Shown here piece by piece: positions 2,880 to 56,885 of a stretch of DNA of 64,000 nucleotides. The stretch comes from Flavonifractor sp. An10 (lineage in GTDB: Bacteria; Bacillota; Clostridia; Oscillospirales; Oscillospiraceae), in NCBI RefSeq assembly GCF_002161215.1, contig NZ_NFMB01000005.1:124001-188000 (forward strand), read 5' to 3'. The stretch's first letter is position 1. Every line of letters starts with the position of its first letter. Both the position numbers and the translations under genes were made by a program. The notes under the pieces were generated by a model. That model made no database searches. It was not told the origin of the DNA and worked only from the letters and a program-made list of their open reading frames with translations.

Positions 2880-2993
2880 AGAAACCTCTCCTTTCAGTCT
2901 CCAGCGGCCTTGTGTGTTACCCAGTCAGTATACAAAAAATGGGAGAGTATGGCAACCCCTTTCCCCAATTCCGGCATGGAGCGCGCAAAAAAA

Positions 2994-3294
2994 GGGCGGA
3001 TCACCTCTTGGATGATCCGCCCTGTCGAAAAAGTGGCTTTGCCGCTTTTTCGAGAAGGATGCAGTCCGCCGCGCGCAGGATTTGTCCGCTTCAGGCGGAC
3101 AAATCCCACACTTGCGGCCTGAGAAGTATTTTCTCCGACGCACACCCCCCAGGGGGCCCTCTCTTGCCCCTTCGGGGCAATTCACCTTGTGTCGCCGGAG
3201 AAAACAGATTTCAGTTTTTTCGCGCCTGCGGGCGCGAACTCTGCGAGGCTTTTTCGACAGCCTGAGGGCGGATCATCCAAGGGATGATCCGCCC
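2994..3294. repeat. hairpin-rich element with palindromic inverted ends
   Basis: A 301-base non-coding block. Its ends are 29-base palindromes (2994-3022 and 3266-3294), each built from GGGCGGATCA and TGATCCGCCC arms. Read inwards, both ends continue into TGTCGAAAAAG (3023-3033 and its complement at 3249-3259), so the whole has inverted ends of about 40 bases. Inside lie several hairpins: GATTTGTCCGC around a short loop near 3078-3104, CCCCTTCGGGG near 3170, TTCGCGCC/GGCGCGAA near 3219-3238, and TTTTCTCCG pairing with CGGAGAAAA. It may be a non-autonomous mobile element, a REP/BIME-type repeat or a structured RNA. It could also end transcription of the gene at 3306-4079. Confidence 0.7.
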
Positions 3295-3305
3295 TCTTCA
3301 TGCGC

Positions 3306-4079
3306 TCACATCAGACGAACGGTATAGTAGACAGCCAGAATCAGCAGCCAGGCCACCAGCACGCCGTACAGCAGGGTCAGGGCCCCCAGCACCAGGGCCG
3401 CGATCACCACCACAGCCACCACGGCGCAGGTCACGTAGAGCAGGACGTAATTGGCGCTCTTGGGCAGGATCTCCACCCAGCTGCCGCCCAGCTTCAGCTT
3501 GCCCCCGGCGGTCTGCATGATGCAGAACACCACCACAGTGCCCACCAGAATCACGCCCAGCACGATGGCGTAGGTGTAGGCGATCTCCGGGAAGCTCACC
3601 CGGTAGGGCACCACCTTCACGCCCAGGATGCCCAGGGCGCTGAGAACGGCGGCAAAGAAGAACTCCCGCTGGTACAGATAGTAGATCAGCGCCAGCACCG
3701 CCACGGCGGGCACCGCCACGTAGAGCAGGCGGATGCCGCTCTCGTCAAAGACGCGGATGATCACCGCACAGGCCGCCAGGGCCAGGGCAATGATGGCCAG
3801 CGCGGCGGACAGGCCGGCGTGCTTTCCCGACTTGCGGGCCTTGACCGCCCAGATCAACAGCAGGACAAAGCAGATGGGCAGGGCGATGGCCAGGCCGGTA
3901 AACACATGCCGCAGGGCCAGAGCCAGGGGAATCTGCTCCGGGGTGTAATGGGAATAGACCTGATTGAGCAAAAGCAGCAGGGCCTCCAGCACCACGGCCC
4001 CCACGATCCACCAGAGGACTTTGGTCAAAATCGCGTCTTCCTGCTTGGCGCGCTGAATTTGTTGTTCTTTCTTGTTCAT
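3306..4079 (-). CDS. conserved multi-pass membrane protein of unknown function
   Basis: A 257-residue protein with a basic, cytoplasmic N-terminus (MNKKEQQIQRAKQED) followed by seven strongly hydrophobic stretches, so probably seven membrane spans. Start ATG 4079 lies behind AGGAG with 8 bases of spacing. No catalytic or binding motif is visible. It stands alone: upstream is the divergent flavinylation operon (4268 onwards), and downstream is the hairpin element. The function is unknown; the call rests on a long GC-rich frame with a good ribosome site and regular membrane segments. Confidence 0.75.
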   Translation of the reverse strand: MNKKEQQIQRAKQEDAILTKVLWWIVGAVVLEALLLLLNQVYSHYTPEQIPLALALRHVFTGLAIALPICFVLLLIWAVKARKSGKHAGLSAALAIIALALAACAVIIRVFDESGIRLLYVAVPAVAVLALIYYLYQREFFFAAVLSALGILGVKVVPYRVSFPEIAYTYAIVLGVILVGTVVVFCIMQTAGGKLKLGGSWVEILPKSANYVLLYVTCAVVAVVVIAALVLGALTLLYGVLVAWLLILAVYYTVRLM

Positions 4080-31093: not shown

Positions 31094-31105
31094 GGAGAAA
31101 ACAAA

Positions 31106-31200
31106 ATCACCGCTCCGAGCGGGAGCGCCTGCAGGCTGCGGCTATGGCGCTTTCGCCAGGGCCAGAGGGGAAACGCTCTGACCTTCCGTGTTTGAAAAGG
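31106..31200 (+). ncRNA. Moco (molybdenum cofactor) riboswitch
   Basis: A leader of about 95 bases that matches the Moco RNA motif from memory. ATCACCGCTCCGAGC is followed by stems leading to CGCCAGGGC, an inserted hairpin CAGAG-GGGAAACG-CTCTG, and the closing strand CTTCCGTGTTTGAAAAGG. The last parts parallel the E. coli moaA leader (AGGGC, hairpin, CCCGTATCTGGAAAGG). An intrinsic terminator at 31234-31265 lies between it and moeA, so ligand-dependent termination is likely: when cofactor is abundant, synthesis genes are switched off. Confidence 0.85.
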
Positions 31201-31233
31201 GGCCGCACCGCTTCTGGGGAAACTCTGTCCAGG

Positions 31234-35497: not shown

Positions 35498-35647
35498 ACT
35501 GCGCTCCGTTCCGCCCCGCGGATGCGGGGCATCCACTCCGCTTCGTTGATTCTGGCTCTCCTCCCGCGACCCGCTTTGCTGGGCTCGCGGGAGGGTTAGA
35601 GAAACGGGTACAGGCAGTGTGAGCCTGTCGGCTCATTTTATATAAAT

Positions 35648-35742
35648 TCTTCGAGCCCGCCCGCCTAAGGCGCTGCTATGGCGTCGGGCCGGGGTGTGTC
35701 TGGAAACGGATGCGCCTACCATTTTGTAAAGGAGAATGTACC
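35648..35742 (+). ncRNA. possible second Moco-type riboswitch before modA
   Basis: The leader shares ordered pieces with the 31106 riboswitch: TTCGAGC near the 5' end, GCTGCTATGGCG, GGGCCGG, a stem closed by a GGAAAC loop, and CC-T-TTTG-AAAGG at the 3' end. The last part merges with the modA ribosome site, so it would act on translation rather than termination. Stems are weaker and contain several G-U pairs. A TATAAA box lies just upstream (about 35640). Moco motifs before modABC are known in other bacteria; this assignment is from memory of the motif. Confidence 0.5.
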
Positions 35743-36612
35743 ATGAAACGAATTGCAGCCCTGTCCCTTGCCCTGGCCCTCATCCTGGGCCTGGCCGCCT
35801 GCGGCGGCGGAAATGCCGGCACCGCGGACACCCCCGCGGCCAACAGCACCACCCCGGCCGCGGAGACCACCGCGCCCCAGGCCGAGCCGGTGGAGGTGGT
35901 GGTGTTTGCCGCCGCGTCCCTGGAGGCCACCCTGACGGAGATCGCCGACCTGTACAAAGAGGTGGCCCCCGAGGTCACCCTCACCTTCAACTTCGACTCC
36001 TCCGGCACCCTGCGCACCCAGATCATAGAGGGCGCGGTGTGCGACCTGTTTATCTCCGCCGGCCAGTCCCAGATGAACGACCTGGAGGCCGGGCAGAATG
36101 AGGACGGCGCCGACTTCGTGTACGCCGACACCCGCATCGACTTTGTGGAAAACAAGGTGGTGCTGGCGGTGCCCGACGACAACCCTGCCGGTATCGAGAC
36201 CTTCTCCGACCTGGCCACGGACAAGCTGTCCCTGCTGTGCATCGGCAACGACGACGTGCCGGTGGGCTCCTACTCCCTGGAGATTCTGGACACCCTGGGC
36301 ATCGACATCGCCCAGCTGGAGGCCGACGGCAAGGTGACCTACGCCTCCAACGTCACCGAGGTGGCCAACCAGGTGAAGGAGGGCGCCGTGGACTGCGGCA
36401 TCATCTACGCCACCGACGCCTATACTTACGAGCTGACCGTGGTGGATCAGGCCACCGCCGACATGTGCAGCCAGGTCATCTACCCCGCCGCCGTCATGAA
36501 GAGCAGCAGCGGCGAGGCCGCCGAGGCCGCCGCCCAGGCCTTCCTGGACTACCTCCACACCGATGAGAGCGCCATCGCCGTGCTGGAGGGCGTGGGCTTC
36601 ACCGTCCTGTAA
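35743..36612 (+). CDS. modA: molybdate ABC transporter substrate-binding protein ModA
   Basis: 289 residues from ATG 35743 (AAAGGAG). Lipoprotein signal with LAACGGG. Mature domain begins EVVVFAAASLEATLTEIADLYKE, the ModA fold, with SSGTLRTQIIEGAVCDLFISAGQSQMNDLE and late TYASNVTEVANQVKEGAVDCGIIYATDAY. The Ser/Tyr residues that bind molybdate in ModA are in these blocks. It captures molybdate or tungstate outside the membrane for ModB/ModC. Confidence 0.95.
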   Translation: MKRIAALSLALALILGLAACGGGNAGTADTPAANSTTPAAETTAPQAEPVEVVVFAAASLEATLTEIADLYKEVAPEVTLTFNFDSSGTLRTQIIEGAVCDLFISAGQSQMNDLEAGQNEDGADFVYADTRIDFVENKVVLAVPDDNPAGIETFSDLATDKLSLLCIGNDDVPVGSYSLEILDTLGIDIAQLEADGKVTYASNVTEVANQVKEGAVDCGIIYATDAYTYELTVVDQATADMCSQVIYPAAVMKSSSGEAAEAAAQAFLDYLHTDESAIAVLEGVGFTVL

Positions 36613-56393: not shown

Positions 56394-56885
56394 ATGCGGC
56401 AAAAGACTTTCCCGGTGATCGACCCTGCGGCCACCGGGGCGAACATCGTCCGCCTGCGCAGGGCGCAGGGCCTGTCCGTCCGGGATCTCCAGGCATACTT
56501 CGGCTTTGAGGAGCCCCAGGCCATCTACAAGTGGCAGAAGGGGAAGAGCCTTCCCTCCGTCGACAATCTGTACGCGCTGGGCGCCCTACTGGAGGTGCCC
56601 ATGGAGGAGATCCTGGTCTCCACGGATTCAAAATGGAATGAACTGGTTTGTGAGCAGCAGGCAGATGCCTGCTGCTCCGGACTGTCTATAAGCCCTCCAG
56701 CCAAAGGATTCGGAGGGAAGGATAGTGTGAAAGGGAACCGTCAGGGTTCCCTTTCACGTTGGATCAAACAACTTTTTGAAACTTTTTTGAAGTTTCAAAA
56801 AGTTCTGCAGCGTGTCGAAAAGACTTTTTCGACACGCTGCAGCAGCAGGCAGATGCCTGCTGCTCTCCGCATTTTTGGGGGGTGA
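56394..56885 (+). CDS. XRE-family HTH protein, C-terminus runs into a hairpin element
   Basis: ATG 56394 (GGAGG, 8 bases). Residues 1-80 are a helix-turn-helix domain: IDPAATGANIVRLRRAQGLSVRDLQAYFGFEEPQAIYKWQKGKSLPSVDNLYALGALLEVPMEEILV. The family usually ends soon after with an E-Q-Q-A segment; here VCEQQADACCSGL is followed by about 70 residues encoded by the hairpin element at 56653-56864 (VKGNRQGSLSRWIKQLFETF and on). So the reading frame was probably extended by insertion, and the natural end was lost or moved. Confidence 0.8.
   Translation: MRQKTFPVIDPAATGANIVRLRRAQGLSVRDLQAYFGFEEPQAIYKWQKGKSLPSVDNLYALGALLEVPMEEILVSTDSKWNELVCEQQADACCSGLSISPPAKGFGGKDSVKGNRQGSLSRWIKQLFETFLKFQKVLQRVEKTFSTRCSSRQMPAALRIFGG
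56653..56864. repeat. hairpin-rich element with repeated palindromic ends
   Basis: The same 24-base palindrome (AGCAGCAGGCA and TGCCTGCTGCT arms) occurs at 56653-56676 and 56841-56864. Between are three near-perfect hairpins: GTGAAAGGGAACC (56727-56757), AACTTTTTGAAACT (56770-56804) and GCAGCGTGTCGAAAA (56807-56840). The last shares TGTCGAAAAG with the element at 2994-3294, and the plan (palindromic ends, internal hairpins) is the same. Confidence 0.7.

Follow-up and report, generated by a model that had tools for sequence, protein, structure and literature searches.

The folded block at positions 2994-3294 of the window (the whole 64,000-nucleotide stretch of Flavonifractor sp. An10 DNA analysed here) is most probably a miniature non-autonomous transposable element that has IS1182-type ends, takes terminator stem-loops as targets and duplicates the whole target hairpin upon insertion, its mobility being deduced from sequence comparison. 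We read it in this way because the two flanks of the element match each other, because relatives carry only a hairpin at the same site, and because an insertion sequence (IS) with like ends lies between two copies of a palindrome. A non-autonomous element had been one of the two possibilities raised by the original prediction, and it is supported by dispersed copies, element-free sites, target duplications measured against controls, and ends shared with an IS of the IS1182 type.

The element itself is non-coding, measures 239 bp (3022-3260, + strand) and is the long form of what we call family 1. It is delimited by exact 12-bp terminal inverted repeats, CTGTCGAAAAAG at 3022-3033 and CTTTTTCGACAG at 3249-3260, which lie inside the outer inverted arms of the feature (2983-3023 and 3265-3305). 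These arms, predicted at about 40 bases, are indeed 41 nt each and 88% complementary. Between the 12-bp repeats the interior consists of several hairpins, and the predicted chain of stable hairpins is borne out by folding energies with z scores of -13.7 on the + strand and -12.6 on the - strand, none of 100 dinucleotide shuffles per strand being equally stable. Terminal hairpin 1 (3022-3058, +) includes the left inverted repeat and matches in plan a terminal hairpin of the IS1182-type elements. It is followed by a covarying structured core (3060-3249, +; model R1, 155.9 bits) made of a helix at 3062-3069/3114-3121 around a hairpin at 3078-3106, a second helix at about 3126-3140/3193-3206, a hairpin at 3219-3238 and a conserved tail, AACTCTGCGAGGC. 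The long form (237-239 bp) owes its size to some 45 extra bp with a GC-rich hairpin (3145-3189, +), missing in the short form of 192-194 bp, so that element size ranges from 192 to 239 bp. The window element contains no transposase gene and, among the several mechanically called open frames that overlap it, the four that were scanned matched no Pfam family up to E 0.1, in line with the absence of coding content noted at the outset. A candidate pseudoknot in the core (ACACTT/AAGTGT) was dropped, as it was unsupported by eye.

Two 31-nt palindromes bracket the element, at 2993-3023 and 3265-3295. The original prediction was right about their presence and mistaken in taking them for the ends of the element: since the palindromes differ from copy to copy, we interpret them as two copies of the terminator hairpin of the neighbouring gene, and their variation from site to site rules them out as the element's own ends. 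This gene (3306-4079, - strand) encodes a 257-aa protein with no Pfam or NCBIfam match. On the minus strand, the hairpin at 2993-3023 is followed by a T-run and is likely the intrinsic terminator of the gene: it scored as a terminator in a scan of this strand, which yielded 2 sites in the region vs 0.8 expected in shuffles, it precedes a promoter-like site for the next gene, and a hairpin is found at the same place in 17 of 18 relatives. Flank comparison identifies 3265-3295 (-) as the second copy of the target hairpin, which lacks the T-run.

The element is not confined to this site. In the Flavonifractor sp. An10 genome (3.88 Mb, 15 contigs), 85 matching pieces, which include several per copy as well as reverse matches of palindromes, were grouped into 40 places including the window copy, and matches were present in 15 of 20 genomes of the genus, again counting this one. 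The end motif CTGTCGAAAAAG was matched with at most one mismatch 136 times, vs 56 times for the reversed pattern. Copies with both ends, running from TGTCG to CGACA, were mostly 192-193 bp (short form) or 237 bp (long form, about 45 bp extra). In one composite copy (L012, G000:C11:64114-64431), the first hairpin of a family-1 copy is replaced by an element of the second family described below.

Duplication of the flanks was assessed in 23 complete family-1 copies (14 from the same genome, 9 from relatives), taken from 60 loci examined after leaving out duplicate loci, copies at contig ends and those in which one or both ends had over 2 mismatches. Hairpin stems of at least 9 were present in 83% of their 46 flanks vs 0.7% of 414 control stretches. 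In 17/23 copies the two flanks were alike (score of at least 17), with a different hairpin at each site; among 506 mismatched flank pairs, the median score was 7, the 95th percentile 13 and the highest score 26. For family 2, duplicated flanks were found in 33/52 copies from this and related genomes; over either family and either orientation, 0.6% of 3158 mismatched pairs passed. Copies from other genera gave the same picture, with duplicated flanks in 19/45 (46 copies, one excluded for its closeness to a contig end) vs 0.5% of 1980 mismatched pairs. It counts against our reading that a duplicated flank was not seen in 6/23 family-1 and 19/52 family-2 copies, some of which appear interrupted or end-decayed by eye. 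It also counts against it that, among 69 copies of the genus, duplication is mostly missing where the inverted ends are: 23/37 copies with inverted ends have duplicated flanks vs 5/32 without them.

We also compared the two hairpins of each target pair with one another. In the 53 pairs compared centrally (both families and IS copies, leaving out those with an odd length difference or short stems), 40 fitted better in direct orientation, 9 fitted better reversed and 4 were ties. Three of the nine reversed pairs, which include L009, L202, L215 and L001 among others, are exact reversals, as if the loop had flipped after or during insertion.

A feature made only of non-coding hairpins at the 3' end of a gene could also be a repetitive extragenic palindrome, or an array of terminator hairpins grown by local duplication with no transposition involved. 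We consider this highly improbable. The same sharp-ended core is found at unrelated sites, many of which have their own duplicated hairpin, and both element-free sites and a nested insertion exist; for copies with inverted ends and duplicated flanks, local duplication is refuted. Repetitive extragenic palindromes likewise occur as palindromic repeats at gene 3' ends; the end palindromes seen here, unlike those, are host target sequence and vary from site to site. REP/RAYT systems have a dedicated tyrosine transposase and a GTAG foot.

Sites lacking the element support the transposition reading further. The 257-aa gene was found in 18 relatives, and its site could be anchored in 17. In all 17 there was a hairpin with a stem score of 11-21 no further than 75 nt from the stop codon, and the end motif was absent within 300 nt; a search with the core model gave no match at the site in these 17 loci, one of which (L089) has a copy more than 1 kb away. 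Because terminators differ in sequence between species, it is the place of the hairpin that is compared here and not its letters. Filled and empty sites were compared between species, plus one nested case. In that copy (L039, G000:C10:30000-31200), a family-2 element splits a family-1 hairpin that is intact in other copies, and the hairpin and its flank are duplicated around it. The copy search and the comparison of empty with filled sites that had been proposed as checks hence gave 40 places in the genome and, in 17/18 relatives, a hairpin and no element.

Two intergenic spacers elsewhere were compared as well. The fabH-fabK spacer holds the core in four species and a shortened core in a fifth; in five relatives it is only 13-20 nt long, and in nine its place is taken by a different spacer of 49-161 nt. 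The pstB-phoU spacer holds the core in Flavonifractor sp. An10 and a remnant in one relative; among 20 loci, the spacer is only 9-14 nt long in 14 by script and in one more by eye, it is of another kind in two, and it is unreadable in one. Both sets look like insertions with decayed ends, some of which are in the course of being lost. They weigh against the transposition reading in one respect, namely that the relatives' short fabH-fabK and pstB-phoU spacers show no visible terminator hairpin that could have been the insertion target. A different GC-rich insert, of the GTAGGGGCGGATGCCCTCATCCGCC type, occupies the fabH-fabK spacers of L314, L319, L326, L328 and L329, and is perhaps another small intergenic repeat family.

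The window contains a second block with the same plan (56652-56865), whose folding has a z score of -14.4 vs 200 shuffles on the + strand. It had been presented as having the plan of the first block and sharing a word with it. The plan holds; the word common to both is TGTCGAAAA and not the full 10-mer, the blocks differing by one A (TGTCGAAAAAG in the first block, TGTCGAAAAG in the second), and we assign the two blocks to separate repeat families that have in common their plan and their end motif. The putative family-2 element measures 160 bp (56681-56840, +); its interior differs from that of family 1 and its ends are related. Flank comparison shows a copy of a target palindrome on its left (56652-56677) and on its right (56841-56865), and family 2 is, to judge from these flanks, a separate family with the same insertion habit. 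Family-2 copies of about 220 bp also exist in the genome (for example L040, L042 and L048), a long form with some 60 extra bases after position 54 that recalls the long form of family 1.

A candidate for the source of transposase is encoded in the same genome. A 470-aa frame (P0001, G000:C10:285271-286680) matches the IS1182 model NF033551 with 370 bits (cut-off 270), and contains the DUF772 and DDE_Tnp_1_6 domains. Its IS has ends CTGTCGAGAAAG/CTTTTTCGACAG and is bounded on each side by a copy of a 36-bp palindrome, the two being near-identical; the terminal inverted repeats are thus common to the small element, with its CTGTCGAAAAAG ends, and to a full IS of the IS1182 type in G000:C10. We then looked at 20 IS loci, two of them taken from the genus search and the others being 18 of the 45 detected in named genomes; 18 of the 20 were usable once L137 (short flank) and L106 (the same copy as L127) had been left out. 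A duplicated palindrome of 25-36 bp was present at 8/18, including copies in Pseudoflavonifractor phocaeensis, Oscillibacter sp. ER4 and Oscillibacter valericigenes, and in most of these eight one end forms, by eye, a hairpin of the type of the small element's end. The 10/18 IS loci without duplication argue against our reading, and so does the lack of association between IS1182-like proteins and the core in 300 genomes of the family (64/98/48/90, odds ratio 1.22, p 0.41), a test made at a loose IS threshold on genomes many of which are fragmented drafts. At L037 (G000:C11:210188-210538) we found an IS1182-type element with an internal deletion, in which the start and end of the transposase are kept and stop codons are present, a possible step towards a miniature element.

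On the transposition reading, an IS1182-family transposase acting in trans would recognise the 12-16 bp ends, and the same transposase would recognise a target with stem-loop potential, in the typical case an intrinsic terminator hairpin, the cruciform being the probable form in which the target is recognised. Insertion would then duplicate the hairpin, and the window copy keeps the T-run behind one of its two hairpins. With a terminator kept, insertion may do almost no harm; this would account for the high copy number, and suggests how the element could spread widely without breaking terminators, one of which stays in place.

The closest known system is that of IS1272 and TnSha1, which are also of the IS1182 family. 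It shares with the elements described here the transposase family (NF033551 in the partner), terminal inverted repeats that form hairpins, and stem-loop targets including terminators. In staphylococci, IS1272 inserts into terminators and other stem-loops and deletes the stem-loop wholly or in part, and no duplication arises (PMC4923244, PMC5678879), which counts against our reading; the target here is duplicated whole, instead of being replaced or partly deleted, and the small element has no transposase. The hypothetical pathway b of PMC5678879 joins the element at the 5' feet of the cruciform, which may duplicate the whole stem-loop, and the pattern observed here is the one that this pathway would yield. 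The insertions described here would provide many natural cases of whole-hairpin duplication, an outcome that PMC5678879 depicts for IS1182-type transposition as no more than a possibility. In the portion of the open-access literature consulted, no paper was recognised as describing this element, its core or natural stem-loop duplication.

The element has the features of a miniature inverted-repeat transposable element (MITE): it is short and without transposase, it shares its terminal inverted repeats with an autonomous IS, its copies are dispersed, its target is duplicated in the majority of complete copies, and filled and empty sites exist. To our knowledge, the BOX, RUP and SPRITE repeats of pneumococci differ from it in sequence, ends and target. 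They resemble it in being small and intergenic, with stable hairpins, mutual insertion and terminator-like parts (PMC3049150, PMC10969869, in the passages describing them), and differ from it in their host and in that no duplicated terminator is mentioned for them in those passages of PMC10969869. Bacterial MITEs such as QMITE2, as portrayed in that review (PMC10969869), are likewise elements of about 190 bp with terminal inverted repeats, multi-copy, intergenic and mobilised by an IS, as we infer for the present one; they differ from it in using a short AT-rich site in place of a hairpin target of about 25-39 bp, while the element described here is GC-rich and shows family-wide compensatory evolution of its core.

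This core raises the question of why a miniature transposon retains a structure. For 35 of the 54 predicted pairs, one or more of 63 copies from the genus had both bases replaced by others that still pair. With a fixed structure of 40 pairs, scored on 47 of the genus sequences from which it had itself been drawn, 26/40 pairs showed two-sided changes, and covariation was 0.297 vs 0.110 when shuffled and at most 0.062 with slid partners. In other genera (48 distinct rows), 38/40 pairs were changed on both sides and the score was 0.561 vs 0.165 shuffled, in an alignment biased towards the model to which it had been fitted; two of its rows are weak matches, on the reverse strand, of copies that it contains already. 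The covariance analysis that had been proposed is positive in both samples, and the structured core within the original suggestion of an RNA stands on these compensatory changes. On each of three counts the result is the opposite of a unique sequence with no compensatory changes and no empty sites.

With the model, the core was detected in 162 of 300 family genomes (own included) and in 71 of 106 genera, per-genome copy numbers being lower bounds because at most 10 candidates were scored per genome. In a class-wide sample it was present in 3/391 genomes, Flavonifractor sp. An10 and two of the same family, and none was found in the other 388 (20 of the 388 among those listed), the strict filters of large searches losing weak matches. 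A known Rfam RNA is ruled out, as no family in Rfam 15 reached its gathering score; sub-threshold matches were far below the cut-offs, several of them on terminator hairpins.

Position relative to genes is biased as well. Of 112 copies, 25 lie in sense behind a long frame whose stop codon is at -4 to +10 nt of hairpin 1, while 6 lie antisense at a like distance from the other end. The frames were called mechanically, so that some were judged false, and with these removed (sense L001, L069 and L075; antisense L020 and L027) the counts are 22 vs 4 (p 0.0005). Copies whose ends have decayed, many of them in sense right after stop codons, we take to be older. The orthologous fabH-fabK copies of four species keep their pairing, by eye, despite changes in the arms.

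These data bear on what maintains the core. One alternative is a structured RNA with a function, acting as a 3'-UTR, between cistrons or as a small RNA, which became mobile by acquiring IS1182-type ends, with selection mainly on the transcript. The strong covariation, the spread over more than half of the family genomes sampled, the sense bias behind stop codons and the fabH-fabK orthologues all speak for it, as do unpaired stretches such as AACTCTGCGAGGC and CACACTTG, which hardly vary in the genus alignments and are seen again in most of the family loci displayed. An RNA under selection is expected to have more G-U pairs, and wobble is rare here on both strands: G-U makes up 0.7-1.05% and A-C 1.5-2.0% of pair cells (one ambiguous pair excluded), so that on neither strand is there the tolerance of wobble that one would expect of a sequence selected as RNA. 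The absence of the fabH-fabK and pstB-phoU copies from several relatives, their shortening in others and the sub-threshold Rfam scores also weigh against this alternative, which we regard as possible and rather unlikely.

The rarity of wobble makes a constraint at the DNA level possible. Covariation is nearly pure Watson-Crick, with C-G and G-C exchanged among the core pairs without wobble intermediates. Template switching in hairpins and conversion between copies could keep pairing in this way without any function, the core being a passenger, and such switching would give reversed target hairpins like the 9 of 53 above, three of them exact. While rare wobble favours constraint or correction of the DNA, correction of arms alone does not account for the near-invariant unpaired stretches, which call for some selection; a functionless core is, in our opinion, a possible and rather unlikely explanation. 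Our best guess is that the hairpin architecture is constrained for mobility or for tolerance in transcripts, some copies being kept as 3'-UTR or intercistronic elements, and we consider three views of the core: a need for mobility, a role as RNA, and passive correction of hairpins.

It is tempting, on a speculative note that we would not expect to hold in full, to see here a mobile structured element found across the family, in which a core with a function of its own rides on IS1182-type ends and spreads via copied terminators. Copies in sense behind stop codons would have been retained time and again to exert control from a 3'-UTR or an intercistronic position, and the element would then be a transposable structured regulatory module, not a decayed transposon. 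In any case, a non-coding mobile element, as we interpret it, has a folded core conserved across most of the sampled genera and reaches a density of six copies in 50 kb of the human-derived isolate Vescimonas fastidiosa. The 861-kb replicon of this species is the only plasmid record in which the core was found; two 50-kb stretches of it contain six strong copies, and three strong plus one weak, respectively. The six copies of the first stretch are intergenic according to the PLSDB gene table, which is incomplete, and 2/6 have duplicated flanks.

Six unannotated faecal phage records (MT835961.1, MT837098.1 and four others) match the element, one match spanning 80% of the query; the DNA in question may come from prophages or from the host. 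One viral contig has the exact end motif. Elsewhere in the window, two molybdenum/tungsten cofactor riboswitches (Rfam RF01055) lie on the + strand within 4.7 kb, at 31101-31219 and 35637-35750.
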